Source: Patiria pectinifera (taxonomy: Eukaryota > Echinodermata > Asteroidea > Valvatida > Asterinidae). Taken from it: a DNA stretch of 64,000 nucleotides. Each line of letters starts with the position of its first letter. The first letter of the stretch is position 1. Position numbers and translations under genes: made by a program. Location: assembly GCA_029964075.1 (NCBI GenBank), contig CM057149.1, positions 14,208,465 to 14,272,464 on the forward strand, read 5' to 3'. Under the pieces are notes generated by a model. It did no database searches, was not told the origin of the DNA, and worked only from the letters and a program-made list of their open reading frames with translations. Positions 6,019 through 60,402 of the stretch are shown here, in pieces.

Positions 6019-6302
6019 CTAAATTGTCACTGATGATTTCGTTCTTCCACCCGCTGACCCGTTTTCCTTGCTCGCCGAGAACGGCCTGCGGTCCACGCTG
6101 AGCATCTTCTTCTGTCTTGGGCTGCGTCTGCGGTGGCGGGGGGCTGACGCGGCCCTGGGGGCAGCGCCGTTCAGCTGGGAGGAGGCAGTGGAGGAGGTGG
6201 ATGTGGAGATGGACGGGGTGCGTGATGAGGATGACTGGGGCTCAGCCCACTGGCGGGGCGGGGCTTGGTGAGGGGCTAAGCTGCTGACAGTGACTGAGGA
6301 AA
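6019..6302 (-). CDS. Exon 35: terminal exon, basic Ser/Ala-rich tail with stop
   Basis: Acceptor TTTTTTCCAG|TT. It reads 93 residues to TAG at 6019-6021. SISTSTSSTASSQLNG and APRHRRRSPRQKKML are typical. The tail is strongly basic and looks disordered. Of three frames after the acceptor, only this one stays open past the first 17 codons, and it is the frame required by exon 34. GC content is much higher than in the flanking introns. Confidence 0.88.
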
Positions 6303-9300
6303 CTGGAAAAAAATCAACCAGTCATTATGCGTTATCAGGTGATTTATAAAATGGTTACTTTAGGCCAAAAAAAAAAAGTCTCAGGTTTCTGGTATGCGCG
6401 CGCGTCGCCGTAGCCATGCGCGTCGGCAAAATGAAAAAGTTTTTTTTCCAATGAAAGATGATGTCTCAAAACCACCAAACTCACTGGTTTGACTGGAATC
6501 CTGCTGCTGCACAATTTTACGTGTTTTTAGATTGGGTTATGGTCGAGAATAAGCTTTATGTGGCCTCTCTGGACTCCCATATATTTGCACTAAGTTTAGT
6601 CGAGGAAAATTTACAGTCATCAGCCGACATTTGAAGCAAAAAAATCAGGTAAAAAAGCTCCATACCAGAAACCGGAGACTTTTTTTTTTTTGGCCTTAAC
6701 TGTCGTTATTGTCATTAATTATACATGTAGTGTACTTTGCAACCTTGCATTTCAATTTTGTCATTTTGTGAGAACGATACATCTGAAGTTTATGAAAGTT
6801 TTGTCAAAATTGATACAATGCTTTGCATGATGAAATATTGAAGGACTGCGATATTTGCTTTCAATGGGTAAGACAGGTTTAATTTACAAAGGCATGCAAC
6901 TTCAAATTAACAAAAAAGACAGTAAATCCAAAGCTTTACAAAACTCTCTGCAGAGTTTTCCAATTTTCAGCGGCATATGAAGTAAAAAAATATGGAAATC
7001 AGTTGATCCAAGTAAGAGTTGCATGCACTGTTTACAAGTTTGGTAAATTTTATCTTTAAACAAGCTGCTGGCAGGATTGAAACATTGGTGCCACCTAACT
7101 ATTATAATATATCAATTTCAAGCCACTCTGGTTTGCAGCATCATGATTGCTTTCATCACAGGCAATAATCACAGGTGATCCTGGCAACATAAATCCATAA
7201 AGCAAATGGGTTTCCCCCCTCCAAAAAAAAAAATTAAGAAAGAAGGATAAGAGCCACCAGAATTTGTCTGTTGGTCTTCGTACAATGACATAGCTCTAGA
7301 GATGCCCTGTGAAAGGTGGACAGTACCTGATGTGGAACGAGACAGAAGCTTGGGTGAATTTGATCGAGGTGAGGACATTTGTGACGTCTTGACGACAGAG
7401 TCCAGGGTTTCATCTATCATCGTGGTGAAGGAGCTCCGGTCGCAGGCTGCAAAGCACCCTTGCCAGGCCAGATACCCTAGGGATGATAAATATCATATGA
7501 TGAAACACTGCCCAATGAGAAAACTGCATTTGACTCACAAACACGGACGGGGTGCAATGAACAAGCGATACCTTACAAAATGAGTCTCTGCCCAAACCTT
7601 GGGGAGGGGTTCGGGATAGGAGGTAGCCTTGGTCAAGGCGATCAACGATAGTGTCCAATGATAAAAATTCGGCGGCTAACATAAAACAGTAGCCAAGTGC
7701 TATGCACTCACACATATGGTACGTAGCGCGAACAGCGACCTCACGCGGCTGGGCTACAGTATGCAAATCAGTGCTGCCGGACGACCGCCTTGGAACAACT
7801 GTTCAGCTTGGCTGAATTTCCAGCCATGACCTCATATGTGAATTAAGATCAGATAGTAAAGTTACATTCTCCAAGAAGTTTGGAGTCTACAGACCACATA
7901 TAACTCCAGCGACAAAATTGCCCAAAAAAGATAGGCCAACACGACATTTGTTCCAATGAGTTTGACCAGCATCAACTTATTAGTATTCTGTGCACTAGCG
8001 GCATGAGGTTGCTGTTCGCGCTTTGTCCAGTACGTGTGAGTGCATAGCACACAGCACTGTTTATGTACATTAGCAGCCATGTGTCGATCAACGGACACTA
8101 TCGTCAATTACCTTGTCCAAGGCTAGATTAGAGAAGGGAGATTGTAGGGAACAGCAAGTTTCGATCGTTGAGTTACCTTCAGGATGGAGGATGATTATAG
8201 TCGGTGTTGCTAGGACACCAAACAGCTCGGCAACACTGACAACGGACGATGGTAATGAGCCAACTGGTATCCTGTCATTACCAGATGCCTTGTCTCCACT
8301 CTGTCCTGTAAATTCAAAATCATAAAAAAATATTGCTTTAAAAAGAGCTCAAATCGGTTCAAAGGCTCTTGTCTCAGTCCAAATGAGTAGCTTTGCTTGT
8401 CACTCAATTGAGATTGACCTGTGATGGTTTACGATGATCTGTGATGCTTCCAGACTGACTTTTAATTGACTTACGGTTACTTCGTCACCGTCACCACGAA
8501 GTGACACTAACCTCGAAAAATCGATATTTTGCGATTTCGATTTTTTTTTCCTGATTTGTGATTAATTACACATAATCTATCACCTCAGTTAATTAGATTT
8601 GTCAAAACATAGATTAACATTAATTAACAAATGGGTCAAAACCGCAAATGCGTTTTTCACGTGTAATATTACGTTTTAAGTGTACTATACCATTCTTTCG
8701 CGTGTAAGTGCCTTTTCACTACGTCAAAAAAGGTTATGCGTTTTCAAGTGACACAAATGTCACGTGATACGCGCGCCTCACTTCTGGCAAACCCATTAGC
8801 TAATACATACACGTAGTTAGTGTCACTGCGAAAAACTCAACACAGCGTAATCTGAATATTGAGCTTTCACGATGAGCGTATGGTTAATTAGTTTGATAAC
8901 TCATTAATAGTAATTTATTTCAATCAAAATCATACATTGACCTGACACTCAAGATCCCAGCTTTCACCCAATGTATAAATATATGTATTTTACACATTTT
9001 CCACTTCGCGGGGGTTAAGGTCACTTCGTGGTGTCGGTGACGACTTGTGTTGACTTGTGCTCACTTGTAATTGATTTGTGACTGAGCTGTGGTGAACTGT
9101 AATGACTTGATTATCCTTGTGACTAGACTTGTGGTTGCCTTGTGATTGCGTGTTATTGATTTCTGAGTTGACTTCTTGGTTTTACTTGTGATGACTTGTA
9201 ATAAACTCATCATGTCATCATGACGTCAAAATGACGTCATCATGTGTCATAAATTATGACGTCATTTTACAGGTGCATTTTTCAATGGCCTACATCTAGA

Positions 9301-11756
9301 GAACTACAAGACCGATTGAGTTCAAACTTTGTATGTACACATTTTGGGATGTGTTATAAATGAAAACTGCGGTGACATCGTGATAACGTCATCATAAGAT
9401 TAAATATGGATTTTTTGACATTTTTAAGTTCTTTGCCGTATCTGGATAATATTTATCAATATGCAAAATGGGAAGTGACGTCCAGCTATCATCAGCTAAT
9501 TTTTAATAAATGTTTAAACTTTTGCATTTTTTGGCTACTAGCAGACTAGTACAATATCTGAACGACAAGAAAAGCACATACTCATAAACTAAATGCGGAA
9601 AAGCCCTATATTCTGTTTTCAAACAGACTTTGACCTCTTGTTTGTGACTTGTCATACTTCGATTACAACTATAGCTCTCGACAGCACCCTACCTCTGTCA
9701 GAGCTGCTTGCTGAGCTTGCCCGGCTGCCAGGCATCAGGCCTGTATCGCTGGTGCTGCAGCTGCAGCTGTGACGAATCACATTGTCATCTTTCCAGCCTT
9801 GCATTACAATCTGCTGTGAGAGAGTCTGTAGATGGGTGGAGCTTGGGGACTCGTTGCTTTTACAGCAGCACGCAAGACATATTACCTGAGGGTCAGAGAT
9901 GCATTGTCTTGAGTTATAATCAAATGATAATGCTTTTTTTAATACAGAGTAAATATCCACCAGTACTGGTGTTTAAGGTGCTGTACATCAGTATAACTTC
10001 CACTCAGTTGGCCCATAAAACACTCCACAGACAATCTCAGCTTCGTGGGGAGTGTACAACTCGATGCTGCCATTTCAGTACAAAGCAGCTATCTTATCGC
10101 AGTAACCATCTCTGCCCTCACAGGTACTCATTTACTCGTGGGTGCCGAGAAGCAATAGTGACAATGTGTCTTGCCCAAGGACACAGACCTCAAACCCCAG
10201 GCCTGACTTGCACACACAACCTACAGAATTACCCGCAGCCCTCGAGTCCAATGCTCCATGCCACCAGGCCACAGCTCTCCACGTTAAGTTGTAGCCAAGT
10301 CCGACACAAGTCAATCGGAAGAAAGGTCACAATGACCAATAAATGCCTTTGCCTCCATTCATTTGAAGGGTTTGTGACTTGACTCAAGACTGAATGACTT
10401 GCGATTGACTTGTGAGGACTAAACTTTGACACCTATAGACCGCTTGCAGACGCGTTCGATAATCGACGCGCGAAGGCGCCCGACGCCATGTTGTGGGACA
10501 AGCGTATATCTATTCATGCACATTTTGTCCCACAACATGGCGTTGATATAATTTAGAACTCCCAAAGGTAAAATCGTATTGGAGTGTTGTGGTCCAATGG
10601 TTACAGTGTTCCACTCTTGCCGTGGTGCGTGGGTTCGACCCCTGACCGGAACATGGTGCTTGTGTTCTTGGGCAAGACACTTTACTACAATTACCTCTCT
10701 CCACCACGGAGTATAAATGGGTACCTGTTAAGGCAGAGACCACAATGCGCTGAGTTGAGCTGCTGCTAACACTGGTCTCATGGCCTGATGATCAGGGGTA
10801 ATAATTCCGAAGCGCTTTAAGACATTTGGTATAAAGTGCTACATAACCACCTTGTAATTATTATAATAAATATTATTATAAACAGCCATACCAATATCCA
10901 TATATCTTCGATGCAAGAAAAAACTACCTTTCCTGCTCTGTTTTTGGCATAGTCCACAAAGTAATCCATCATCTTCTTTGAAGCAAGACACCTGTAGAAT
11001 AGTGAAATATAGATACCAAAATACTATTGCTAAACATACCTTCAAGTAAAAATCCTTTCGGAATACTTCAAAATTTCCAGAATTTCTTGTTGTCCAAATA
11101 TTTTGGGTCCTTCATGCACCCATAACCAAATCCATAATACTCACTAAACACTTTCTGGAATCTATGGGTAAAGGCAAAGCAGGTCACATTTTATAGTAAC
11201 TTTAAAAAGGACTAACTACAGCACCAACACACACGTTGACTGTACATTTCACTACATACTTCAAGAATCTGTGATAGCACTCAGCTATGGATGTTAGCCT
11301 AGCATATACTGACCAGCGTGTCCAGAACAGCAGCAGGGTTGGACAGCGGTTGGTGAGCTTGGTGGGGACTAGGAGGTGCGGGGACCGGTCAAAGACATCC
11401 AGCACGGTGACCGAGGCCGGCGGGATGCGTCGGCTGGCCAGGTCAAGCTGCTGATGGAGACCCATGATCAGGGCCGAGGAGGAGGATCCAGGGGAGACCT
11501 CCGAGGCTAGGGTCTGCTGGTAGCTGCAGCAGCCTTCCTGGGGGTGCCTGGATTGACAAGAAAAAGATGGGATTGATAAGGAGGGTGATCAGGGCTGGTG
11601 GAATGCGAAGGCTTTCCGGGTCTAGCTGCTGGTGGGGACTCAGAATGCACACATATATTATTTGGGTGAGAAGGCTTGCTGTTCCTATGGATATCCATTT
11701 TGTGAAATTCTTTTCAAAGACAAATTACTTCAAGTAGTTCCGGCGACTTGTGCCTC

Positions 11757-11787
<31 letters not shown>

Positions 11788-14700
11788 TATTTGGCCAAAT
11801 TACAAGGTACAACAAGCAATCCACAAAAGTAAACAAAAACAATCCAATCCAAGTTGGCCAGGATTGACAAAAGTATAATAAAACACTGTGACTCGAAAGC
11901 CTGTCAATCCTAACTTGAATGGTACATGTAACATACAAAATATATTAAAAAATAGGTATAAAATTCAATGAAAAATAAGACCGCCTTAAAAATAATAGTT
12001 AAAAAGATAACTAGATTTAAAAGATTAACAGTTATAACAGTTGTGAATGGGTTTGGTCACAACAGGGTTAATTAGCCAAGAGAAAAAAAACGAGATAGTG
12101 ACTCAATATCAGGTTTTCTTCATCATGCATTAATGACTATTTGTGCCAAGTGTGATGACTTTATACCAATATGCACACCAGGCCTCCATACCCCACAAGA
12201 GGGGTGCAATGCAACTGCTAGCTAGGAGGATGAAGGAGGTAACAACAACCAGTGTTTTTGAGGCTTTGCATGGTGGAGATACTAAATAATGAAAGGTTTG
12301 TTGTGGAAACACCATGTGCGAATAATTTCTCAACTAAGAGAATGGTTCTAAAAAAATTCAGAACCAGAGGTATAAACTCGACATTCCGGTCAGTATGCTC
12401 TGACCGTCTTCAGGAGAATCCTGAACATTCTCCTGAAGATGGTCAGAGCCTACTGACCGGAAAGTCGCGTTTATACCTCTGGTTCTTTTCAGAACCATTC
12501 TCTTAGTTGAGAAATTATTCGCACATGGTGTTTCCGCAAACCTTTCTTTATTTACAACCAGTGTTGTAGTCAAGTATATCACAAGTACTTTCAAAAGTCA
12601 TTTCACAAGTAACGGGATGAGCAATGACAAAGGAATGCTTTTGTAACAATTCATTTGAATAGCTAGTGACTTGACTTGAGACTGAAGCACTTGTGATGGA
12701 CTTGCAGGAACTAGTGATGGACTGGACCTCAACACTGGTTACAACACCACAGCTTTTGCAATAGCCACAGTTACAAGTTCATCACAATTCATCCAGTTTC
12801 AAGTCAGGTCACAAGGTATTCAAATTATCTGTGACATCACCCTGTTACTCACATGTACCGGTGTGTCCACACTTGTGACTGACTTGTGACTGACTTCAGG
12901 TTTCTGAAGCAGGCATGACCCCGAGCTTAAAGATATAGTCCATCATTTGTAATTTGTGCATTTTGTTCGTTTGAAACAACAAAAGTGTTCAAAATCTAAT
13001 GAAGGATACTGAACAACTAACCTGATGAAGTTTCAGGTCAGCTTCAGCTGTATATTTCGAGAAAAACAGCATTCTAGGATCTCCATTTCAAATCAAAAAT
13101 TGCTGAATCATGTTTTGAATTGGGCCTGAATTCAGCATCCGAGACACGTTCTCACTGAGCCGGTTGCAGCTATACGCGATGTCGCGCACTGAGCCGACGA
13201 ATTATAGCAAACCGCACGCGCGTGTGCATCGTGCCAATGCTTGCACGCGCTTCGTCGAATAACAAAACGAACTACTTATTTAAATTTTCCTACAGTGTGT
13301 CTTAAAACGCACCATTGGAAAGGCCTTCTTTCGTTGATTACTTCAAAATGACAGCTTGCCAGAAAGAATAATTTCACAGGGAGTTTAGTCCCCTTACTAT
13401 CTTTCAACCAAGTATGTTTTTCAACAATAATTACGCCAGTTACTTTTCGGATGGCTGTAAATGATGGACTCTGGCTTTAAGAAATGACAGACGCCCATGC
13501 AAAGTCGGCAACAATAAACACATAGATAGCACACACTGCTCTGCTCTTCCTACCTGCTGTCCTTGCGATGCACTGAGTGCAGACAGTAGCTGGTGAACGG
13601 CAGGAATGGACTAGTGTCTACGACGGTGACATCTGATGGCTCACTGTTTCCCACTGGATGGTCGGTGGTGGCAACCACGCAGATCTTATGCAGGCCATCA
13701 TAAGCACTCAACTGTAAACAGTAGACATAGCACAATAAATAGATAAGGATGAAAAGATAGACTTGGAGAACTCAATGGATACCATGCCTCTATTTTCTCT
13801 TAACCCTCCGAGCAGCGAAGTGGTGATTTCATTCTCCACATTTTCCAAATATGGGCATAAATTGTTGTTCAATGGGACAATAAGGCCAAGCTTCCATGTA
13901 ATCCTCACCCCCTCTATACACCACAAGCCTGTAGACTCCCATTGGCCAGACCCTAGCCACTCCGGAGTAAGGAGTGTTGAAAGACAGCAGCCAAGATGGC
14001 GGCTAATGCCTTTGTGCAGTAATGTGAGATCTTAGTGGCCAACCCCTCAGTGCCGCCGATCCCTTTGTGTCAACCCCTCGTGAAGCCAGGAGCCCAGACA
14101 GGTTGTAAACAATCCCTGACCATGTGAATGACCTATATCTTGTGCATGTACAGGCATTCCAGGGTTATTGACCCATAAACACATGTGGTGATCAAATTCT
14201 CCACGTGGTTCCACTGTGTAATTTTTTTTGATAAGCTGCTCGGCGGGTAATGTGTCTTCTTAATGGTTGACCATTAGTTTAATCCTTGTTTCAGCTAGGT
14301 CTAATGATTCAGCTAGGTCTAATGAATGAATCAGACAGTATGATGATTTCAAACCCTTTACAAGTATTAGACTGTTACTTCAATGATTAGATTATTTTCT
14401 ACGTATTGCCACCTTCATCTTAGTCTATGATACACGAGCAGATTTGGTGATTAATTATCAGGCATGCAACTGGGAATTTAGAAAAAACAAGGACATTCCG
14501 AAATACACAAGACTTTGTACAGTATTTTTCAATTTGTAATGGCATTCACGAGAAGTAAAAAACAAGGAAATCAGCGGATCCGAGGAAAAGTTGCATGCCT
14601 GAATTATGCAACTAGACTACATCTTGACCTCAAGATTCTAACCATTCAGCGGGCGCATTCTATATCAGGTCTTCGGTACCCCGCTGTGATAGCCAATATC

Positions 14701-17700
14701 GGGTTTTATTAGATCTCTATGCCCGTTGTTTTATTACAAAAACATGGCCTCCAAATTGACCATTCAACAGCTTAGTCCACATTTCAGAATAAAGTGACGT
14801 CATGTTGACCCCGATTGACTGGCAGGAGAGGTCGCATAAATTTGCATGCTTAGACATATAAGATGTTGGACCAGGGACATAGAGGGCTCCGTTGGACAAC
14901 CAGTGATACTCAGACTACCTTCATCAATGCAATGAGAAAAAATCTTGCCATTGTGAATACAAACGTCAAACCAGTGATAAAACATCTTTTGTCATTAGCT
15001 TCAAGACAACTGTTAAAGCCAATTTGAGTCGGCTTGAGTCTACCACATTCGTAAATTATGAAAAATGTTTGAACTTAGTTCAAACCCTACATAAGTTTTA
15101 AGTTTAAAGGGAATGTACATCATTGGCTTTTGCTGTAATATTCTGAAATTAACTATTTGAGGGGTTAGCATAATAGATCAAATATTGTTACACTGACATG
15201 TTTGAAGTTTTGTGCTCGAAAATGCTGGAAAAACCAAGAAAAACAAAAAGGTTCAAGTAGTCTGGTTCCCTGACTCCACTAAAGATGAAATGGATCAATT
15301 TATAGATGCCGAAAAATTGTATGGTAAAGGAACCAGTTTAGCTGGCCTGCACCCGTTCATGAACATGTAACCAATAGCAAACAAAATTTGGACTGGAAAA
15401 AAGGTAAATGGGAGCAGTAGGTTTTTTCAACGGTGGTCGGCCGACCACCGCTGGAAATTTATACAAAAATACTACTTTTCTTGAAAATGACTTCACACCA
15501 GGTGCCATAATTTTACAGGATGCTTTACACTGTCATTTACCAACATTCTAGCAAGGTATTTTGTAAAAATTTGGTAGTTTTGTTTTTAGATGTTTGCAAA
15601 TGTTGTATATTCCCTTTTAATGATTGTAGAAAAGCCCACTGACCTGCAGACATATACGGTCCATGTTTGAGTGTAGGAGGAAGCCGTTCTGCTTGCCGTT
15701 GACCAAGACCTTGTAGCCAGAGAGGTTCACGTCTTTGTTCTCATGGACTGGGTTCCACTCCACATCCACTGCTACAGTGCCTACGAGAAAAAGAGCAGAT
15801 CTTCCAACCTTAAACAAGGCCAAGAGCACCAATGAAGAAAAAGTAATTGTTTTCCCTTATGGAACATCAAGTAACTCAAATCTGAATGCAATATGACTCG
15901 ATCGTCCACACCTGCATCGCTAGATGTAAAATGCGAAGATAATGCAGTGGTTACAGTGTTGAATTAAAGCTATAGTCCATCACTTGCAGCCATCCAAAAA
16001 AGTAACTGGCGTATTATTGTTGAAAAACAAACTTGGTTGAAAGATAGTAAGGGAACTAAACTCCCTGCGAAATTAATCTTTCTGGCAAGCTTTCATTTCG
16101 AAGTAATCAACGAAAGAAGGCCTTTCCAAATGGTGCGTCTTAAGACGCACCGTGGAAAATTTAAATTAGTAGTTCGTTTTGTTATTTGGCGCAGCACGCG
16201 CAAGCATTAGTACGACGCACAGGCGCACGCGGTTGCTATAATTCGTTGGATCAGTGCACGACATCGCATATAGCTGCAATTCAAAACAATTCAAAACATG
16301 ATTCAGCAACTTTTGATTTGAAATTGAGATCCTAGAATGCTGTTTTTCTCAGAATATACAGCTGAACCTGAGCTGAAACTTCATCAGGTTAGTTGTTCAG
16401 TATCCTTCATTAGATTTTGAACACTTTTGTTGCTTCAAACCAACAAAATGCACAAATTACAAATGATGGACTATATCTTTAAGGGGAACCAAAAGATTGA
16501 GCAGACACAAATGTATGCATACAATACTTGGCAAACACACTATTGCAAATTAGGGTGACATTACCCTAAAACAAAAAATGCTATGCAATGCCTTGTATGC
16601 TGTCAATGTTGCAATTTTGTATCATCATGTTGATGGCTACCTGTGTATGGGAGGAGTGTTTCGAGGACTTGAAACAGCTGGTCTTCGATCTCTGCCAGAG
16701 CTGATAAAGCATCCGAAATCTGCACAAAGGAAGGAATAACATACGCATTTGATAGTCTTACTTTTGTAGTGCTCGTATAGGCATACAATAAATATGTGAC
16801 TTGTGCATTTTCTTTTTCCTTTCCGTTTACCTCTTCTTTTATTTAATTTTCACTACAAAGTAAACAGTTTCGACAGAACTTCTATTGATCCCCAAATAGA
16901 GCAGGTCAGAAATGAGAATAGAAATGAAAGGGAACATCCTTCAACAGAGTCTCTGCTGACGGCTTTCACAGTAAATAACTTCACTTCGTTCACCCTCTTG
17001 CTGCTTAACCCTGCGCAGCGTTTACAAAAAATGTTTATCAGAGCTCACCAAAGGTGGCCCTTTGGGCCACCGGTACTTCCCCGCACTACACAAGACCCTA
17101 TTCATGTCAAAACAACAACAAGCCACGTGCCAGACAGTGTCCAGGCAGTTGCCAGACAGTGCACTTAAAAGATAATTGACTGGCGGCTGTGGTTTGCGGC
17201 TATTAAGGGAGATGGCTGTGTCAAGTTACAGGTGTTTGTATATGTTTCAATGAGACTTGGCAGGAGGCCTGGTCGAAAGTTTGTTGACACGGCCTGGGTG
17301 AAGCCCTGGCTGCAAAGTTCATTGAACCAGCTGATTTGGCAAGGGTTGAATGAGGATTAGATGGAAGGTGACCGTCATTAACCCTTTTTTTTTTTTTTTC
17401 AAAAAAATTTGGTCACCTGTGTACCCACGGTACGGAGGTCACTCTGCGCAGGGTTAAAAGGTCAATGGTCAAAATTCCCATCCTCTCCCCCGGCATACTC
17501 TTAACAAACCAATGGGGGTCTTGACCCAAGTAATAACAAGGCTCAGAATGCACGTCTCCATAGGAGGGTTAACAAAACAAAATAAAAGTGGCCATGAGAC
17601 AAATCAGCCGAACAGAGAACACAACTCCAGTCAATGAACGTTTGCATTTTCTATTGAATTCACATGTAAGGTTCAATTCTGAAGTAGCAATTTGAGTAAG

Positions 17701-20700
17701 CCTTTTTGGAGTTCCAACTGCGCATTCATAACCTGTGACAACGCGCATTGTTTGTCTCAAATGGCCTTTGACATCATCGCGCCACTGACTTTACAAAAAG
17801 GCTGTTTGTGCATTGTGGGTACTGTCAAAGGGCATTTGAGACAAACAATGTGCGTTGTCACAGGTTACGAATGCGCGCAGTTGGAACTCCGAAAAGGCTT
17901 ATTCTGATAGGGCTCACCTCTGTTGTATGGTCTGCATATTCCACGTCGCCTGGCGGTAGACCAGGGTTACTTGCCTGCTGATAGCTGATCAACTCTTGAA
18001 GCAGCCTGGGGGTTATTAAAGGGAATATACAACATTTGCAAACATCGAAAAATAAAACTACCAAGTTTTTACGACATACCTTACTAGGATGTTGGTAAAT
18101 GACAGTCACAAGCATTCTGTAAAATTACGGCACCTGGTGTGAAGTCATTTTCAAGAAAATGGTATTTTTGTATACATTTCCAACGGTGGTCGGCCGACCA
18201 CCGTTGGAAAAACCTAACTTAGTTCAACTACTGCTCCATATTTACCATTTGTTTCAGTTCCAATTGTGTTTGCTATTGGTTACATGTTCATGAATGGGTG
18301 CAGGCCAGCTAGACTGGTTCCCTTACCTTACAATTTTCCGGCATCTATAATTTGATCCATTTCATCTTTAGTGGAGTCAGGGAACCAGACTGCTTGAACA
18401 TTTTTGTTTTTCTTGGTTTTTTTCGAGCATTGTCGGACACAAAACTTCAAACATGTCAGTGTAACAATATTTGATCCGTTACACTAACCTCTCAACTAGT
18501 TCATTTCTGAAAATTACAATGATGAAAAAGCCAATGATGTACATTCCCTTTAACAACACATTCTTATTTCACTGGAAATTTGCATCAGGAAGGATGTCAA
18601 CTTTCAAACTTGGTTGAGCTTTAAAAAAAGTACTGTTAAATACATATGATATGAATGCTCAGTGCTCTCTGCGATTTTCTAAGAGAAACAACTTGCACGG
18701 CGAATATATTACGGTACCGATATCTATCACTGCACCGTGAAACATTTATATGTATGAATGGAACGTTTTTCACAATAGGGAGGTTTCGCAAGCGAACGGA
18801 TACGCTTACACTTACGTTTAGCTATCCGTATCCGTATCCAGACGACACGCATATCTCGCTCGCTACACGTAAGTAAAAAACGGATACGGATAGCTAAACA
18901 TAAGTGTAAGCGTATCCGTTCGCTTGCGAAACCTTCCTAATAATGTACAAATAACCCCCCAAAATACAATACAAAGTTGTGCTAATGCTAATGAAGATTC
19001 AGATCCACTTTTCTTTAACAATGCATGATTGTCAACCCATCTTCATTTGTTTGAAGGGCAACAAATGTGTGAAGTCACATGCTATAAAAACGCCTCTATC
19101 TCATTTTAAAGATATAGTCCATCATTTGTAATTTGTGCATTTTGTTCGTTTGAAGCAACAAAAGTGTTCAAAATCTAACGAAGGATACTGAACAACTAGC
19201 CTGATGAAGTTTCAGCTCAGCTTCAGCTATACATGCATATTCCGAGAAAAACAGCATTCTAGGATCTCAATTTCAAATCAAAAGTTGCTGAATCATGTTT
19301 TGAATTGTAGCTATACGCGATGTCGCGCACTGATCCGACGAATTATAGCAACCGCGCGCGCCTGTGCGTCGTGCCAATCTTTACGCACGCTGCGCCGAAT
19401 AACAAAACAAACTACAAACTTAAATTTTCCTACGGTGCGTCTTAAGACGCACCGTTGGAAAGGCCTTCTTTCATTGATGACTTCAAAATGATAGCTTGCC
19501 AGAAAGATTAATTTCACAGGGATTTTAGTCTACTTACTATCTTTCAACCAAGTATGTTTTTCAATTCTAATACGCCAGTTACTTTTTCGGATGCCTGCAA
19601 ATGACGGACTATAGCTTTAACCAAATTTGAAAGAACCAATATCAGGCTGTGCTTATGTTCATTATTTCCCAAAATGTACAATGTTAATTCATCGTCATTT
19701 TATCCAATAAAACCAAAAAAAAGGAAATTCGGTTTGAATCTCGCAACCCCAAGCCAAACCCCATCGAACCCACCTGTGTCTGACATTGACCAAATGGCAG
19801 GCCTCGATCTCAAGTGCCCGACGCTCTTCCAACCCCCTGACCGTCACCCGGACTGTAGGGGGCGCTGGTCGCCGCGCCACGTACTGCTTGCTCAGTGGGC
19901 GGGACCGCAGGGCCTTGCCCATCCCGCCCACGTGGGTGTCAAGCAGGATCGTGTGGGCAGCGTGGGGAGAGAGGTGGGGGAATTCGGCCCAGCGCTGGTC
20001 CGGAGGCAAGGGGCCGAGGGTCTTGAGGGGCTGGCGTCGGTTCGGAGGTATCGCCTTGTGGCCGGTGCCCAAGTCTTCGATACACATCACCTGCAAAACA
20101 GAAAAATGATCATCAGCGTTATTCACAAAGGTCACTCTGTATAGACCTTATGCAATTCAGATGTCCGAGAAGGTGTTCTTTGTCATTTTAATTAGTAACA
20201 ACAATTCGGGCGATTCACAATTCAATGCGCCACCAAGAGTTTGCCACGGAGAGTTAATATTTCCCAGTGCATTGTGGGAGATGGTCGACAAATTCGCAGC
20301 GCGGGACATTTGAAATTGTTAGTTTTTCCGGTCAGTAATTTCGTAAGAGTATGATTCGAATATATGTTCGCCCTTTTTTTTTTGTAATCAATATGGTGTT
20401 TTTTGTAAGGCCGCAGTACGCAATGTCCCAATCTATAACAAAATTAGCTCAAGTTGTCTACTGACACTCATTCAAATGGACAGCGTTTTTTCGATCTGAA
20501 ACTTGAAAAAGGGACTCTCCATGCATTGTGAATCGCCTGAATTGAACAACTTGTTTACTCATGCCTATCCAAGCAATACAAACCACTGCCCACTAACTCC
20601 GCCTTAACGCATAAGGTTTATTGAACATCAAACCTTCAGAGCCTTGAGACCACCTAGGACCCCTCTTATAAAGGTATGCACCCCAACCTGTCTGATAACA

Positions 20701-47700: not shown

Positions 47701-50700
47701 CTCGACCACCGAGCTAACGGGATCGGTTGGCTGGTTCGAATCTGATGTACATAGCAGCGGGCACCGCATAAACTATTATAAGATGGAATTTTGCGTCGGG
47801 GTGATATAAATCAAATTAGGTTTTGCCCTTCACCAACGTTTTTTAAACACTGTATACTCAGTGTGTTACCTCCCGAGTGAAAGTAGTTTTCGTTGATATA
47901 TACGCATGCCCAGCATCATTAGCCTCATTTGGCATGTTCTGTACTCGCAACGCTTGTGCTCCATCCTCAACTAAGCTCTTGGAAAAACAGCTGCAGTAAC
48001 CGGTACTCCTGCGCCCAAGCCCTTCATTGTGTGATTTACATATGACAGTGCGTAACACGGTTATGAAAAAATATTTAACGCGAGTTCATTTTTTGAAGTT
48101 GTGGGGCAAAAAGTAGGGAAAAAGTAGGAATTTCATGAGAAGAAATAGGAAAAGTAGGAGCAAGGTAAAAAAAAAATAACGAAAAGAAGGAATACTTGAA
48201 AGCCTGATATTAGGTAATACACTTGTACATGTAACATACTAATGGTTTCCCGGTGGTTAAAGCTATAGTCCATCATTTGCAGCTATCCAAAAAGCGACTG
48301 ACGTAATTATTGTTGAAAAACACACATTTGGTTGAAAGATAGTAAGAGGACTAAACTCCCTGTGAAATTATTCTTTCTGGCAAGCTGTTATTTTGAAGAA
48401 ATCAACGAAAGAAGGCCTTTCCAACGGTGCATCTTAAGACGCACCGTTGGAAATTTTCGTTAGTAGTTCGTTTTTTTCATTTCGGCGAAGTGCGTGCAAG
48501 CGTTCACACGACGCACACGCACGCGCGCCATCTATAATTCGTCGGATCAGTATGCGACATCATGTAGCTGCATTCGGCTCAGTAAGAATGTGTCTCGGAC
48601 GCTGAATTCAGGCCCAATTCAAAACATGATTCAGCAACTTTTGATTTGAAATCGAGATCCTAGAATGCTGTTTTTCTCGAAATATACAGCTGGAGCTGAG
48701 TTGAAACTTCATCAGGTTAGTTGTTCAGCACCCTTCTTTAGATTTTTAGCACGTTTGTTGCTTCAAACGAACAAAATGCACAAATTACAAATGATGGACT
48801 ATACCTTTAAGCATACGCACTTAAGTGTTCACAATGAAAAACAATGTAATGCCAATAACTGTTATTTCATTTGTGTATCCTGTTACATGCGCAACCTCTC
48901 TCTATTGCGTGAACTCACTGGTAATGGGTGAGCTGTTTGTTCTTCTGTCGATGCCACACGATGACAGCAGACCGGTCATCTGTTGAGGGCTCTTGCCTGA
49001 CGGCTGGGGGGTCAGGGACTTCTGGACAGGTCACGGTAATGAGGTTGGAGGCTTTGGTCTGGCCAGCATTGGTGGTCACCATCGATAGGGTGAAATAGTG
49101 CTTGGCACCTGTGGAAATCATTCAATATACTTAAACCATTGCTATGACGTCACATTATTGTTAAAAGCATGGTTTCGGATATACAAATTTCTTACACTGG
49201 TCACAAAGTGTGGATTCGGAACGACGAATCTTTAGTAAAGTGTGGATTCGGAATTACGAATCCACACTTTGAACACGTCGGACAATTTGTTTTCCATTAT
49301 GAGCATGAATAGGACCGTCTGCGTGAAAATCTGCTTTCCGAAAATTACCAATGCATCTTCACTGTCAGATTCTCCGCCGTCACTGCAAAATCTACTTTTA
49401 GTCAGAAAGAAATCGTCATCTGAACTATCTATTTTGACGTACATTGTAAGGAGCCTTTAAACACAAAATGACTTGGTTGTCCGGGTGTGTTATACACATG
49501 CTAAACACGCTAGGAAAAAAAGTTGCAACTTCCGCGCTTGTGTACAAAGTTTATGGAGAGTCATTGCAAGTATTTCCTAACAAAATTGGAAACATTTCTC
49601 AGTCCTAGATTCATGTCTTATCATCATTTTTGCAACGAATGACCTTCATTGAGATGATATACAGTATGTAGAAAAAAGTGGCATCAAGTTGCAACATTCT
49701 TTCCAATACTTCTGTTGACGCAATGGTTTAAGTCGAAGAATACACTCGCAAGTGTGGATTCTTAATTTACGAATTCACTCGGTGCTTTGTGCCTCGTGAA
49801 TTCTTAAATTACGAATCCACACTTCCTCGTGTAATTTCTCCTTAACATAATCCTCTTGTAGTGTTCCCCAACTCACAATGGTTGTTTCATTTTTATTTAT
49901 TTATTTTTTAATCAACAAATTGTAATGCTTTTATAGCACTTTCCATCGAATCAACAATCTCAAAGCGCTTTACAATTACTCCCCCGTTCATCAGGCCAAG
50001 AGACCACGCTACAGCAGATGTTAGCCCACATTTGGCCCTCTACCCTCACCTAGGTACCCATTTATACTCCTGGGTGGAGAGAGGCAATTGTAGTCGAGTG
50101 TCTTGCCAAAGACATCAGGTTTGAACCCCCGCACCATTGTACATGAGTCAAACACCGTAACCACTGGACCACGGCATTCTACATGTTTATTTCCTTCGGT
50201 TTTGCAAAGTAACATTATGTCAAAACATTTTCAAGCAATCTTAGCGCATCTGTCTCAGCAGGAATAAAAGTTTATTTTAAGAGGAGGGAAGAATAAAAAA
50301 TAAGATAAAATAAAAGACTAGGCCACCCTTGTTGAGCTAGACTTCAAAGGTCTAATTTTAGTACATTATATACACTCAGAGATTCAGTTAGTCATTTAGT
50401 GACTCAGTCAAGCAGAGGACTTCAGCATGTCACTTCGAGTCGAGTCAGGTGAGTCGATGTGTACCCATCCATAACGTATATTTCGGGTGGCATGGGTGGC
50501 TTGTGCGTAAAGCGCTCGCCTCTCACCAAGGTGACCACGGTTCGAATCCTGGACGCGGATCACATGTGAGTAGAGTTGTGCGTTGGTTCTCTCCTGTGCC
50601 ACGAGGGTTTTTCTCCGTGCCCTCCGGTTTTCCTCCCTCCGGAAAAATCAAACACTTTCGATCTCAGGCTGTGCTCCGTGGTCATATATGGGTCGATGTG

Positions 50701-53700
50701 GCCGGCAGCCAGAGGCGCCTTTATGTGCCAGCGGCCCGACCACAAATAGCCGCATCCTTTGCAATTCAGCATACCAGCTGCGAGTAAGGATGATTAGCCT
50801 CCCAAATTATCATTATTATTATTATATCAATTCATTATCTCAATAATTCTGCAATCATTTTGCTTTTATCAATACACCATAAACAAAAAGAAGAAAAGAT
50901 GTTCTGGGAATAGAAACAAAACAAAACAAACAAAATATAAAGATACAAAACAAAAACAAAACAATGACAAAATCTCACCCGGCTGTAAGTTCTTGATGGT
51001 CTTCTCCATCTTGCCGTAAGGTATTATCTCTGACATCGGTTTGCCGTTCCGCGTCAGCTGGTACCCCATGACGTCGATGTCCTCATGGCAGCGGCCGGGC
51101 TCCCAGCCCAGCGTGACCTCCTGTAACCCCACGGCTCGGGCCATGAGGCACGGGGGCTGGGGTGTGCCGCCCGTGGTGCAGAGCACGGGGTGGGAGACTC
51201 GCTTGACGTGGCCGCGGTGGGAGGTAGTTTTGTGGTGGTAAGTGGCATTTACTGATACCCTTGATGAAATAAAAAAGAAAGAAAGTCAATCTAAAAAGGT
51301 CATGATTTTGAGCCTCTAACTGTATCAACAAAAATTTTCAATTTCTTTGCATTTTTTTTTGGGGGGGTGGCTAGTTTGTGTTTGTTTTGGCTTTTCTTTA
51401 TTTATGGATTTTTTTTTTTTTTTTAATTGCAATGGATTGAGATGTCATTATTCAAAGCAAAATTATCGTATCGAACAGAAACAATTCCCCAATCTCATGC
51501 TTTAAACAGCAAAACAAAAATGGAAAAAGAAAATCCGTAATGCCATGGTCCAGTGGTTACGGTCTTTGACTCATGCACAATGGTGCGTGGGTTCGAACCC
51601 TGCCAGGCCCTTGGCAAGACACTTGACTACAATTGCCTCTCCTCACATCGGAGTATCGTATGAATGGGTACGTGAGGGTAGAGGACCAAATGTACACTGA
51701 TATCAGCTGCCGTGGTCTCGTGGCCTGATGAACGGGGGAATAATTGAAAAGTGCTTTGAGATTGTTGATAGGATGGAAAACGCGATAAGCATTAGAATTT
51801 AATTTGTATTTGTAAATTCACATGTAAATGGGATGTCATAATTCCTGTATCCATTAACAACACCTTAAAGTTTCCGTAAGTACATGTATTTCCAGGTTTG
51901 ATGACATTATTACTTTGAAACGTAACAAAGTAATTTTGAGGGTAGGGGTGCTTCCCTTCGATCACATTGGATAAATCAAATGAGGTTTTGCCCTTCACCG
52001 ACGTTTAAACATTGTATACTCAGTGTGTTACCTCCCGAGCGAAAGATGGAAAAATATCACTCGGGTGGGACTCGAACCCACGACCTCCTGCTTTCTAGTG
52101 CAGACGTCTTACCACTCGACCACCGAGCTAAAGGGATCAGTTGGCTGGTTCGAATCTGATGTACATAGCAGCCGGTACCGTGTAAACTATAAAATTCCAT
52201 CTTATAACACATTGGATTAGTTGGCATCTTACCTGTAAGCTGTGTTTTCTGCGAGTCCTGTGGGTACAAAGACTTGTCCCCTGCCGGCATTCCAACTGTG
52301 CTGTATCTCAGTCTCTCCAGAGTCTGTCGACACTTCTTGCCTGCACAATGACAATGTTAGAATGGAAACTCAGCATTAGCAATCAGAACTCATGTTAGAA
52401 TAAAAAAATGTGAGAATCAGTTTCATAGGACAACCATCCATTTGATAACCATGTGTAGAGAAATGTAACCTGTAGTTTTTGGACTGATGTGCAGGACCAG
52501 TAGATGCCACTAGTTGGTCTTCTTGTGAGAAAGAAGGATAAAACATAGCATGCGATCAAGTGACTGTAGCCTGGGGAGACAATGAAATTATTGTCCAGCT
52601 GGGACCAGATTTGCTGGTGCTGAAGCGATCTCGTGTTTTGTGATCGTTTTGGTATCATCCCTCTTGTCCTGCGCAATTCTTATTATCGTGAATTCCCTCT
52701 TTGCACGCTCCGCCATAAGCACGCAGAGCCTCGATCTGGCAACTTTACACAATATTCCCGTGTATACACAACTTTACACAGTGATTCCCGTGTATACACA
52801 AGAATCACTGAACCCCGACACGGGAATCACTGAACCGGCTATATTTATTGTGTAAAGTTGCAAGATTGAGGCTCTTCCCTGGGGTTTTGCCAGGACTCGA
52901 GGATAGGCTTTTTGTTATAAAAATATAGATTCTCCATAAAACTGTCTATCGTGTCTCCCTTTGATGTAAGCTTCGTGTAAACTGTTAAGCCTGGGGAGAC
53001 ACGATGACGTAACCGTCCAGCTTGAACCAGATTTGCCAAAGCGATCTGGTGTTCGCTTTGGTACGTATCTTCACTCTTATATAGTTTCTCCATAAAACTG
53101 TCTATCCTGTCCCCCTTTAGCGTAAGTTTCGCATAAATCATTTGTGTCAACAGCAGGAGCTAGAGCATATATCCTATTTTTTTCCAAATGAATGTGCACA
53201 AAGCCTAAAGCCTGGTTCATACTCGGTGCGAAAGCGAAAGCGAACGCGAATTTGTGACATCATGGAGAGTATTCGAGATGTGAATTCGTAAAAGTTGAAC
53301 ACATTTCAACTTGGGCGAATTTCGCAGTGAATGTTTCATGAAGTCAAATTCGCTTCGCATTCGTTTTCACATGAAGTATGAACCGGGCTTTACAATCTCG
53401 ATGTAAATCTGAACGTGGAACTCAAAAAGGCATTGTTAATATTACGCCAAATACTTTTTGGATCCTCTACACAAGGATACACGACTTCCCCAAATGTCTG
53501 GTAAGATGCCTTCTATGCGTTGTTTTATGCGTGGACGCAGCATATCACGCATGTAGACAAACCGTTCTGTACATTCTGTACACAAACAGATGAGTCGGCT
53601 ATTCTTGTGTAGAGGATCCGTGGTTTAACCCTGCGCTGACATATTTTATAATAGAAAACATCAGTTAAAGCCAGAGTCCATCATTTGCAGCTATCCAAAA

Positions 53701-56700
53701 AGTAACTGGCGTAATTATTGTTGAAAAACATACTTGTTTAAAAGATAGTAAGGGGACTAAACTCCCTGTGAAATTATTCTTTCTGGCAAGCTGTCATTTT
53801 GAAGAAATCAACGAAAGAAGGCCTTTATTAAGAAGCACCATTGGAAATTTCCGTTAGTAGTTTTTTTTTTTTATTCGGCAAAGCCCGCGCAAGCATTGGC
53901 AATACGCTGTTGCTATAATTCGTCGGATCAGTGCGCAACATCGCGTAGCTGCAATTGGCTCAGTAAGAACATGTCTCGGACGCTGAATTCAGGCCCAATT
54001 CAAAACATGATTCAGCAACTTTTAATTTGAAATCGAGACCCTAGAATGTTGTTTTTCTCGAAATATACAGCTGAAGATGAGCTAAAACTTCATCAGGTTA
54101 GTTGTTCAGCACCCTTCTTTAGATTTTGAGCACTTTTGTTGCTTCAAACGAACAAAATGCACAGATTACAAATGATGGACTATACCTTTAAAAAAGGCGA
54201 CACTCTTACAACAGCAGTAGCCCATAACAAGCAACTTTTAAGGGATTATGAGAAACAAAGAATCAGCCTTTCAGCAATGACCACACTATGAGAAAACAGG
54301 GGGCTGGGATTATTAGCTCGCAGCTTCGAATCTGATATGGCCGTAAATAAAGTACATGTACAGGAATCTTTTACTCTTGATCAAAGTCTTGCTTCTGTGG
54401 TCAATCTGGAAGCCAGCGGACTTTACCTGGCATGGCTGGTGATGCTGCTTTCAAATGTCCTCCCCACTATGCAGACATTGTAGTGATGCAGACCATAGGG
54501 GGTGTGTTCGCAAGATGCAATCTGCCAGCGGATGTGTAGCTCTGCAGTGGTGGGCTGGCTGCGGACGCTCACAATGGGTTTTGGTAGGGAGACGGTCTCA
54601 TGCTAAGTTAAAAAAATAATAATAAGTATATTAAATAATTATTAGTACAAGGAGTATATAACCTTACCAGACAATATAAATGACAAAAAAAACATTACTG
54701 ATGTGGCACAAGGATCATGGGCAGGTGTCATGTGCACACACAGACCCTTCGACCAATACGGTTTTGAAATTACATGTGTGCCTCAAATTAAGAACAAGCG
54801 CAACATGCCCATGAGTATGGTGTCACCTTACATGCCTTATGGCGATTGCTTGATGGGTCTACATTTTCGTCACCGACACCACGAACTGACACCCGGTGGT
54901 CAGCGTTGCAGAAATACAAATGGGAGAAAAACGCTTTTAAAGGTTTGACACGAATTTACTCAGTAAAATATTCCCTCTATCTTAGAGGTTTTAGTATCAC
55001 TCAACGTGAACATGCTTACACTATTCAATTATAAACGTTATATTGTAAAAAATCTGCTTAGTTAATTAGCAATTAAATGATTAAGATGGGTGTCAGTTCG
55101 TGAAAACCAAAATTGACGCGTTTTGGGAGAGTGCGCGCACACACTGCGCATGCGTGCGCACACTCTCCAAAAACACGTCAATTTTGGTAACAAAAAATAC
55201 CAGAATTGACCAATTTAGTGAAAATTCATTAGTAAAATGTGCTTATTTTAGATGATTTCAGCAATTTTAACTTCGTCATGTTAAACTTCATGATACAAAC
55301 TGCTAATATGCGCAAAAAAAGAACATTTGAATTCTAAAAATTTTTTGTACATGTGTGATGCAGAGGGTGTCAGTTCGTGGTGTCGGTGACGATTTGTATA
55401 AAGGGTCAAAACAAAAGCTTCTTTCTGATTTTAAGCCAAGTATTCGCACTGCAGTAGGTACGGTAATCAAACTGCATATGCTCACACTGAGATGTGACAA
55501 GTACACTTTTGGGATAAACAATTTAACAACTTCTGAAATTACTGAAAAATAATGGAAGTGCACGACTTACAAAAATAAAGATACAGTTTGTGCCAGCAAG
55601 AGGTGCTGACAAGCAACTCTGCAAAATCACTAAACGGGAACAAATGTTGCAACCTGACGCCATTTCAGGGGTCGGGCACAAAGTCTACGGAGAGTCAAGA
55701 ACATTTTCCAAGTATTTCCTAACAAAGTAAAAATGTTTCTCAGCCCCAGATTCGTGTCTTATCATCATTGCAATGACTGACCTTTATGAGATTATATACA
55801 TGTATGAAGAAAAAAAGTGGCGTCAGGTTGCAACATTTTTTCCACTTAATGTATTTTTCTTGCCTCAAGGGGGAAAAAACTGAAAGAGAAATGTAAAAAA
55901 AAAAGGAATTGGTATCAGAATCAATTCATGAAAAAAACATTAAAAAAATATGACACAAAATTTCAACCTCGGAAATCTATCAGTGTGCGTGAATGAAAAC
56001 AGAGAAATGGATGAGATGAGGGGAACAATGGACATTTTGGTTAGACATGTTAGAAGTTGGAACAGCTACCAATTTACAAGCAAGAGTCAGGCACAACAAA
56101 GAAAACTGAGGTGGGATTAGCTTGTTACATGGAGTGATTACAAATGCAGATACCTGCTGTTTAACTGGTTCTCCGCTACCAATGCCACCACAATCATCAT
56201 GCAACGATTCTGCGTTTATTTCATCATGCACAGCTATAGCCTCATCACCACCATGCCAGTCATCACCACAGTGTTCAATGTGGTCTTGTTCCTCGCCACT
56301 TTGTTCTGATTCCGCTACTCTCTGCTCTGCGGTAGGCTGGGGCAGACTAGGGACCACGAGACCTTTTTCCTGATCACAATTCTCAGTTCCAGCTTTTTCA
56401 TTGGAGCTTTTTACCGGGTTCTCATGCACTAGTAATACACTGTGATCACGATATGACACACCATCATGCAACGCAGACTGATCATTTTCAGCTACCCTAC
56501 TAGCATGCATTCCACCACCGTCTCTATCGGTTTCGCTTTTATTGGGTTGAATTAACGGGGTCGTTTCAGGGGGCTGAACATTAACATCAGCTGTGTGGAA
56601 TTCTTGATCATCGCAAACATTTTCCGCATTTTCTGAAGCCTGATCATCGTTCGGTGGAGGTGTTGTTCCCCTATTTTCAACCATTGCTTCAAACACTGCT

Positions 56701-59700
56701 CCCGTTTCATCATCGAGTTCGGCTTCATCAGGGATATTAGTTTCCCTCTTTGAATCAATGTGCTCGTTTCTACCATTGGCCTGTAACTTGGTTTCGGAAA
56801 CGGGATGCGAATTTTCAGTAATCTTTGGGGGCTGGGGGTCTGGGAATGTATTTTCAACACTTGGGTGGGATTTGGCCTCTAAGTTACCACATTCATCATG
56901 GGCCTCGCTACTGCCTGCATGATTTCTGCCGATGGCAATCTGCGAATCGGAAATGTTCAAGCTGGTAACTTTGCCAGCAGTGTTATCTATTTGTTTTGGG
57001 TCAACTGGAATTGTTTCATTGGTGCTTGAAACATCTGCGTCTGCCGAATAATTTTCCCTGGTTCCCTTGTCTAGGATCTCGTGAACGCTATGGCCAATCT
57101 CATGGTTTTGTGTAGAATGCTGGGGACCAGCGGGACCGGTCTTAGCACTCATGTCCATGCATGCATTGCTTACGCTGTCGGAATCTGATGGGTTTTGTGC
57201 GTGTTGGGGCTCACTGTCCATCCCGGTGTCTTGTTGGGTGTTCGTCTGCACCTCTGTCCCTGTGCGGTTGAATGTCTCCTCACTATTGCGAAAAAAAAAG
57301 TTAAAACAATCTCTCAGGGAAAAGTTCAAACTAGCAATACAAATAATCTGCTCTACAATGTTACCTTGTGCTGAGCTAAGAATTTTTCAAGAAATGTGCT
57401 CTCTATTAGTCAGTGTTGTAGTAGTACTTTTCAAAGTTTAATGTGCAATGTGCAAAGTTTACTGCCAAATATTGTACGTATATGACTTTCATAATTCTAT
57501 TCAAATAAAAGGTTTAACCCATTAGCATCTGTACTACATTTATATAATATTGGATGGCTTTGAGGTGGATACAAGAATATATTGCACGAGCTAGTGCAAT
57601 ATTGTCATTGCAAGTGCAATATATTATTGTATTCACCGAAAACAAGCCATCCAATATTATTATTAATATTTATATCAGGGCTGACTTGATCCACAAGAAG
57701 CGCAATTCAAGACGCTGTCTTCATTACATCTTTTTCGTTCACATCAAACGTTTTCAAGCTGCCACTGTAATTGTTAACAACTGTGCGCCTATACCTGGCC
57801 TTCTGCGCGCTGCATGCGCGCGGCGTGTTCCGTGTTCGACGGTACGCGCGCGCGCTACGCTCTGTTGAGTGGTTTTCAACTGTGACTCTCTATGCTCTTG
57901 ATCAAGCGGGAACCTGCGAAAATGCCCGGATTGACTGCAATAACAACGTTATTGCAGTCAACTTTTTATGAAAGCATACAATATGCTGATTTACTTTTAC
58001 CGCCGGAAGCCTGATATAAATAATAATGTATTATAATGTATTAATTAATATCGAGTGCTCAAACAGTTTCGGCGCTATACAGGGAGTAATTGACAGGGCA
58101 GTTTTGGGGGCTACATTGGCTAAAGGGTTAATGACCAAAGTACTCAATTGTTAGTTGCTTGAGTTTAAGTTCTATCGGCAAAAAAAGTTTCAATTCCAGA
58201 AAACTGTCGCTGCAATGACACAAGGAACACTTTGCATTATAAATACAAACCAAATATCGATATTGCAGAACAAATTTGTATACTGTGTTTCAAACCACCG
58301 CACCAGCATTGTAAGGCTTTTATAGATTGTTCAAGGAATAAAAACAATGCACTTGATACAATTTAGAGGAAATGCTAACATGTAAATTCTGTTCGTGCCA
58401 AGTGTTCTAGACTTGCTGGCTTCATACGGCGCACTGTAAAATAAAAAAATGCTGAAGTTCTTCTCAAATCATATCGTTCTCTCTGCAGGCCCATCTTGGA
58501 ATACGCCACGCTGGTTTGGCTACCTCACCAGAAAAATAAGATTTAATTTAATCTTATTTTACTTTATTTTATTTCATTTCATTTTACATGTATTTTTATT
58601 TTAGTTTAGTTTATTCTATTTATTTCATCTTATTTTATTTCATTTATATTCTATTTAAACTATTTATTTATATATTTGTTTATTTATTTATTTATTTATT
58701 TATTTACTTACTTACTTTTTTATTTATTTATTTACTCTTATTGTTATTTTTAATTGTATTTTTAATTATATTTTGCATAACTGCTTAATATTTTAAATAT
58801 TTTATTTAATGAATTTTATCCTAAATGTATTAATCACTGTTATCCAATTAGTTTGGAGAGCCCCTCGACAGAAACTTGTTTCTTTTGGGTAATCCTACGG
58901 GAGCTTTTGGGTGTTGTTTTCTGTTATGTTTTCTGTTATGTTTACTACTCAGTGTTATTTGTACATGTACCGGGTAATTGTTTTGTCTATGATTCACTAT
59001 TTGTAATATCCCGGAAAATGAAATAAATAAAATAATAAATAAATAAATGTTGTGACTGTCCACTACATGTATATGAAACACACTAGAATTAATGCCGTCA
59101 TTAGTTTGTGGCCTACCATTCCATGGATCTGTTGGGCACAGCATCATTGGGGTCCTCTTGAGGGACATTGCCTTGAGTAAGTGTAGACACTGAGCCATCA
59201 AAACTCTCCCGTTGCTCCACGGACTGCAAGAGGTCAGTCTTAGAATCTGAAAAATATACAACAAAATTGGTGTTACAATATGATAAATGCATTGTAAATG
59301 GGGCCCCATTTCATAGCACTGCTTATGTTGGCATTTATGACCCCAAACAAAGTGACTTCATTTGCATAACATATGGGCGACATGCGCAACTGCTCCCTCA
59401 ATGATATGTTAGAAAGGGAAAGTTGGGGAGACCTGGGACATACATTCCAACGCATTGTCGACAACCCCATAAAGTCACTAATAATGGTTTAAAGTGCCAA
59501 GCTTCATTCGAGTCTTACTAATAATTTGGTTTTGGCTAGTCGTTGGGATTGCGGTCATAAATTGTTGAAAATGCTTGGGGAGTCAGGTTGGCGTAGCGGT
59601 ACTTTCCTCGCCTTCCACCGCTGTGACCCGGGTTCGAATCCCGCCTTGGTCAATATGTGAATTAGGTTTTTAGTCCCTACCTGATTCTGTGGGTTTTCCC

Positions 59701-60402: not shown

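Follow-up and report, generated by a model that had tools for sequence, protein, structure and literature searches.

A very large animal protein-coding gene lies incompletely within the window analysed here (64,000 nucleotides of Patiria pectinifera DNA; C21:14208465-14272464 in a host genome of 613.5 Mb and 1,020 contigs), which contains the exons for the C-terminal two thirds of its product. The gene model was built by a splice and codon search, after which three frames were read by hand with splice sites marked. This procedure recovered 34 GT-AG exons on the minus strand, running from 60402 down to 6019, of which 26 carry 1,980 open codons and the following 8 carry 448 codons. The exons are given below in window coordinates and in the reading order of the gene, with E values of single FN3 units against PF00041 unless another model is named.

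60265..60402, minus, end of FN3-like unit B, first exon of the preliminary description; entry phase 1 from an exon outside the window
59117..59246, minus, linker
56154..57282, minus, acidic stretch, pI 4.4
54427..54602, minus, start of FN3 unit 1 (unit 1, E = 0.016)
52233..52340, minus, FN3 unit 1
50979..51259, minus, FN3 units 1-2 (unit 2, E = 1.1e-4)
48919..49108, minus, FN3 units 2-3 (unit 3, E = 1.6e-5)
47242..47365, minus, FN3 unit 3
45170..45373, minus, FN3 units 3-4 (unit 4, E = 3.6e-5)
44477..44645, minus, FN3 unit 4
41742..41894, minus, start of FN3 unit 5, placed by hand and absent from the automatic model (unit 5, E = 1.2e-6)
40820..40924, minus, FN3 unit 5
38566..38658, minus, FN3 unit 5
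37679..37855, minus, FN3 units 5-6 (unit 6, E = 1.4e-9)
35970..36734, minus, FN3 units 6-8, with the whole of unit 7 (unit 7, E = 1.3e-11)
35110..35406, minus, FN3-like unit 8, without a Pfam FN3 match on its own
33876..33948, minus, FN3-like unit 9
33310..33483, minus, FN3-like unit 9, without a Pfam FN3 match on its own
30780..30978, minus, FN3 units 9-10 (unit 10, E = 0.001)
29497..29576, minus, FN3 unit 10
27575..27840, minus, FN3 units 10-11 (unit 11, E = 1.8e-5)
26382..26443, minus, FN3 unit 11
25788..25966, minus, FN3 units 11-12 (unit 12, E = 7.4e-5)
24020..24200, minus, FN3 unit 12
21922..22095, minus, FN3 units 12-13 (unit 13, E = 0.0068)
19774..20090, minus, FN3 unit 13 and start of unit 14; exit phase 2, a misfit with the next exon
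15644..15780, minus, FN3-like unit 14 (RIMBP2-like Ig, E = 5.8e-5)
13554..13711, minus, end of FN3-like unit 14 and linker; exit phase 2
11314..11547, minus, linker and thioredoxin-like domain as far as ...LLLFWTRW; coding-like codons ahead of the first Met
10928..10991, minus, thioredoxin-like domain with the active site W|CLAS (CxxS); own codon score -2.4 over 21 codons
9693..9885, minus, thioredoxin-like domain and start of the Ser-rich insert
8177..8305, minus, end of the insert and cis-Pro strand ...LATPTIIILHPE
7327..7476, minus, last strand and helix of the thioredoxin-like domain (G|YLAWQG...MIDETLDSVVK)
6019..6302, minus, last exon, basic Ser-rich tail and stop codon; the tail begins in the preceding exon

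The chain is in phase throughout except at one junction, where exon 19774-20090 leaves in phase 2 and exon 15644-15780 enters in phase 1. This mismatch means that at least one small exon is absent from the model or that one border is wrong. Exon candidates between 19.8 and 15.8 kb were all weak and none was accepted. The preliminary description had joined 35 exons in phase over 6019-60402 into 2,444 codons; 34 exons and both ends were recovered here, but not the phase fit at this junction, and the difference from the 2,428 codons recovered fits an absent exon of about 15 codons. Under the same settings an automatic gene finder gave the minus strand a score of 510, the plus strand 110 and three shuffled sequences 18, 19 and 23; this control used the automatic model and a codon table trained on this very gene, so it favours the gene and is not blind. 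Early automatic models, on which the initial Pfam run was made, contained spurious exons and missed 41742-41894, and were replaced by the hand-checked set.

Host genome DNA beyond the window adds 28 further exons on the 5' side, which continue the same open chain and join stop-free to exon 60265-60402. From the predicted start codon, an ATG 49.7 kb beyond the window edge, the 28 upstream and 26 in-window exons form a stop-free chain of 3,037 codons, followed after the phase gap by the 8 exons of 448 codons. The whole gene model comprises 62 exons, 10,462 coding bases and ~3,490 residues over 107.7 kb, from 14214483 to 14322184 on the minus strand of C21. Several small upstream exons (91170-91224, 102676-102739) are doubtful, as are weak sites such as the donor of exon 69678-69830 (score 1.6). 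Upstream candidates such as 74242-74276, 104326-104346, 107887-107917, 109042-109097 and 100373-100468 were dropped because their neighbours join in phase without them. The locus is bounded on its upstream side by a KIN17-like gene in the same orientation, at ~134.6-144.6 kb in continued window coordinates (WH_KIN17, E = 5.5e-14; KN17_SH3, E = 1.7e-12; assigned from two of five exon candidates further upstream). When the last 448 residues were compared by blast with the animal's own genome, 8 matches came back, all within exons of this gene. What had been described as a whole protein is thus its C-terminal two thirds, and the upstream exons add further domains; a gene reading confined to a single window can miss one third of a protein.

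The window also contains several repeats. One interspersed element of ~500-555 bp occurs in seven copies that are 79-96% alike, and its open frames mimic a repeated short protein yet probably belong to a mobile element. A second, of ~540 bp, occurs in six copies that are 73-88% alike, with a partial match at 1312-1708.

12927-13480, 15964-16482, 19106-19620, 34006-34493, 41013-41561, 48257-48810 and 53665-54191, both orientations, copies of the ~500-555 bp element
15094-15624, 18015-18553, 22123-22658, 38757-39287, 40061-40592 and 46697-47216, both orientations, copies of the ~540 bp element

An intronic reverse-transcriptase open frame that is oriented like the gene (43406-44362; RVT_1, E = 5.8e-9) presumably belongs to a non-LTR element, judging by its appearance. 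Two tRNA-like matches on the minus strand, at 47642-47716 and 52056-52130, lack a regular anticodon; they lie within a repeat whose two copies are 93% alike and are probably copies of a tRNA-derived SINE. Related units of 11-12 bases are repeated in tandem in three introns, at 32744-33253 (GACTTGTGATTG), 28018-28374 (ACTTGTGATTG) and 12871-12896 (ACTTGTGACTG).

Most of the encoded protein within the window is an FN3 array, preceded by an acidic region 377 residues long (pI 4.4) and followed by the thioredoxin-like domain and a tail of 111 residues with pI 12. The array of 1,515 residues matches PF00041 in 11 stretches (E = 2.4e-69), a profile match over the beta-sandwich unit that places it in the FN3 superfamily. 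It was cut by hand into 14 units, of which 11 match PF00041 singly at E ≤ 0.016 and 5 exceed the Pfam cut-off; no Pfam FN3 model matched units 8 and 9 singly, and unit 14, tested in its second half only, gave the RIMBP2-like Ig match. The acidic region, the roughly 14 FN3 domains (as FN3-like units) and the basic tail of the preliminary description were recovered. Together with two upstream units, the whole protein has about sixteen FN3-like units. In PDB the array has titin and myosin-binding protein C as its best rows, and by analogy with these it is read as a long intracellular rod. Elsewhere in the genome (C2, ~12097372-12186166; L001-L008), strong FN3 matches lie densely on one strand over ~90 kb, perhaps marking a titin-like gene; the search that found them scored the best 150 of 1,098 candidates, none of them from the gene under study, and is uninformative about that gene.

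The upstream exons encode seven cupredoxin-like units, a CHB_HEX_C-like domain and two FN3-like units. The seven repeat units share the pattern GF.P....V..GD.V.W.W....H (alignment A1). Over this region NCBIfam returned plastocyanin (TIGR02656, E = 6.5e-17 with 3 stretches), halocyanin (E = 1.2e-15) and pseudoazurin (E = 1.9e-5), all scoring below the curated whole-protein cut-offs, and a phmmer search of PDB returned plastocyanins in 9/9 rows (best E = 0.018). With a profile of the seven units, copper proteins of cupredoxin fold made up 40 of 45 PDB rows, including the best 26 (top plastocyanin, E = 1.1e-6), and the reversed units gave 0 PDB rows. These profile matches to plastocyanin-like proteins assign the units to the cupredoxin fold. 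Taken singly, units 1 and 5 match Pfam copper-protein models (E = 0.014-0.048), units 3 and 7 give only a weak PKD match (E = 0.098 and 0.085), and units 2, 4 and 6 have no Pfam match. A type-1 (blue) copper site is formed by His-Cys-His-Met ligands. The first His is in place in 6/7 units and the Cys in one (unit 3), which shows no second His and no Met. The unit 2 loop holds a Met, and the unit 6 loop both a Met and a His, that could not be placed in register. As the sole unit with the Cys lacks the second His and the Met, the full ligand set is found in 0/7 units, and the array does not qualify as a blue copper protein. The CHB_HEX_C_1 (chitobiase-C-terminal-like) domain exceeds the Pfam cut-off (E = 1e-6). 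Beyond it lie one FN3 unit just over the cut-off (E = 1.5e-5) and unit B, for which Pfam gave no FN3 match.

We read these exons as a single gene whose product would be an elongated scaffold or tether inside the cell, headed by a monothiol thioredoxin-like domain, a reading to which we assign a probability of about 60%. The exons could instead belong to two neighbouring genes, either an upstream cupredoxin/FN3 gene beside a downstream FN3/thioredoxin gene, or an FN3 gene followed by an independent thioredoxin gene that begins with the Met in 11314-11547. This division is unlikely. In its favour are the out-of-phase junction 19774/15644 and the stop that the frame of exon 13554-13711 meets just beyond its donor, and a phase fit arises by chance at one junction in three. 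Against it, exon 13554-13711 leaves in phase 2 and exon 11314-11547 takes phase 2, and the 27 codons ahead of the first Met in exon 11314-11547 score +11.4, whereas 3,000 stop-free stretches of equal length from outside the model exons, under a codon model whose training left out the last eight exons, gave a mean of -5.6 (s.d. 4.9) and 0/3000 draws as high. Coding sequence therefore seems to enter this exon from the 5' side, and among the last eight exons only 10928-10991 has a negative codon score. Domains also bridge the junctions in question: unit 14 spans 15644/13554, and on hand reading the last strand of unit B comes from exon 60265-60402, across the window-edge junction 66164->60402, so that this junction falls inside a domain. 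In the favoured reading all exons would belong to a single transcript.

The best-scoring ATG of the interval lies in an ACCATGG context, opens the sequence MGTGASKDTAA and has an in-frame stop 17 codons upstream. The N terminus Met-Gly-x-x-x-Ser/Thr is an N-myristoylation signal, and MGTGASK matches this motif; with the ACCATGG context, this start suggests an N-myristoylated cytosolic protein. The phase-fitting donor of this first exon scores 2.7 and a rival donor in the wrong phase scores 3.2. N-glycosylation sequons number 7 against 8.3 expected in the N-terminal part, 2 against 5.5 in the FN3 array and 3 against 3.3 at the C terminus, and cysteine content is 2.1-3.4% across the three parts (the N-terminal count included 17 residues ahead of the chosen Met). 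Sequons at or below chance together with frequent cysteines favour the cytosol, in line with the intracellular look that the protein had been credited with. An improbable alternative is a secreted or membrane-bound extracellular FN3 protein, the real first exon of which would encode a signal peptide and be absent from the model. Both FN3 arrays and the cupredoxin folds of animals, such as those of ephrins and multicopper oxidases, occur mainly outside cells, extracellular proteins account for 4/10 PDB rows of the FN3 array (fibronectin, tenascin-R and contactin-2 twice), and a run of N in the upstream DNA makes an earlier first exon possible. The ACCATGG start, its upstream in-frame stop, the MGxxxS N terminus and the sequon and cysteine counts all argue for the cytosolic protein instead.

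The C-terminal domain likely has a thioredoxin fold, as judged from motif order and profile searches. Read across the splices, a hydrophobic strand with FWTRW is followed by C-L-A-S-K, the strand VICLACCC and a Ser-rich insert; beyond the insert come the helix VAELFGV, the strand ATPTIIIL with HPEG, YLAWQG and the last helix. The active site, WCLAS across splice 11314/10991, keeps one cysteine and has a serine in place of the second, which sets the domain apart from the dithiol (CxxC) thioredoxin enzymes. Thioredoxin_8 matches the domain alone at E = 0.011 and the longer C-terminal part at E = 0.093, and all three NCBIfam matches are thioredoxin-type (TrxC, E = 0.0014; StoA, E = 0.015; thioredoxin, E = 0.026). 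Thioredoxins fill 20 of 24 PDB rows at E ≤ 1 with the insert in place (best E = 0.007), and 27 of 32 with it removed (best E = 0.0048). The reversed domain gave no thioredoxin-type family in Pfam and 0 PDB rows, the latter for the insert-containing form only. It is very improbable that the domain has another fold and resembles thioredoxin by chance. The matches of the natural sequence (E = 0.0014-0.093) are all below curated cut-offs, and the PDB alignments fall mostly in the first half, near FWTRWC; yet the matches are mostly thioredoxin-type and vanish on reversal, and with the insert left out Thioredoxin_8 extends over positions 4-93 of 94 (E = 0.0025, below cut-off). For the thioredoxin-like domain of the preliminary description, the kind of the matches points to this fold and their scores stay below every curated cut-off; HMM searches of the kind that it had proposed were clear for FN3 and weak for thioredoxin.

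In the tether or scaffold that we favour, the lipid-anchored N-terminal end would hold a membrane, and the copper-less cupredoxins and FN3 units would form a titin-like rod of beta-sandwiches, with the acidic stretch serving as its hinge. The thioredoxin-like head and basic tail would grip a partner, perhaps via a mixed disulphide, which would make the grip redox-sensitive. That the protein is instead a redox enzyme, whose cupredoxin domains pass electrons and whose thioredoxin domain reduces disulphides, is most improbable: two redox-protein folds do occur in one chain and one thioredoxin cysteine and the cis-Pro motif are retained, but all seven cupredoxin units lack a full copper site and the CxxS active site lacks a resolving cysteine.

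More tentatively, and with somewhat less than even odds, the tether may represent a new family of N-myristoylated cytosolic giants, which would join a copper-less plastocyanin-like array to a CHB_HEX_C-like domain and an FN3 rod, carry a monothiol thioredoxin-like head at the end, and link a membrane to a partner through a redox-sensitive grip. We know of no description of tandem plastocyanin-type domains in animal cytosolic proteins. The architecture was not found among the listed titles and abstract beginnings of open papers on FN3 with thioredoxin, nucleoredoxin, cupredoxin, plastocyanin, cilia or myristoylation, and the earlier statement that no well-described family is known to pair a long FN3 array with a terminal thioredoxin-like fold is uncontradicted within those same titles and abstract beginnings. 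In collections that do not cover animals as such, the C-terminal part gave 1 pattern match and 0 confirmed among viral contigs, and the FN3 part 6 pattern matches and 0 confirmed among prokaryote genomes. The gene may well be annotated elsewhere already as an uncharacterised protein. Pairing a cupredoxin run with FN3 units and a thioredoxin-like end would be a novel design for an intracellular giant. Provided that the start is correct, domains that are usually extracellular have been reused inside cells as copper-less building blocks, and the lone thioredoxin cysteine would offer an easy handle on redox control of a scaffold.

Several known systems share parts of this architecture. Plastocyanin, halocyanin and amicyanin have in common with the seven N-terminal units their fold, by profile, whereas here the units form a tandem array in an animal protein and have no full type-1 copper site. 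Thioredoxin and TlpA-type thioredoxins share the W-C motif, the cis-Pro strand and the strand order, but the present domain has a CxxS active site and a Ser-rich insert and is terminal in a giant protein. Proteins with a stonustoxin-type thioredoxin-like domain are animal proteins that join such a domain to other modules; the principle of combination is common to both, and their domain is absent among the Pfam matches listed here. RIM-binding proteins combine SH3 domains with FN3 domains and have far fewer FN3 units. Some units here match the RIMBP2-like Ig model PF25523, but the array is much longer and has a thioredoxin-like end. Among the Pfam matches listed, from a scan of the modelled exons from residue 39 onward, there was neither an SH3 domain, which sets the protein apart from RIM-binding proteins, nor an Ig I-set or kinase domain, which sets it apart from the titin family. 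With titin, twitchin and myosin-binding protein C the protein shares a long FN3 array and may work alike in kind, but to this plan it adds cupredoxin, CHB_HEX_C-like and thioredoxin-like domains.
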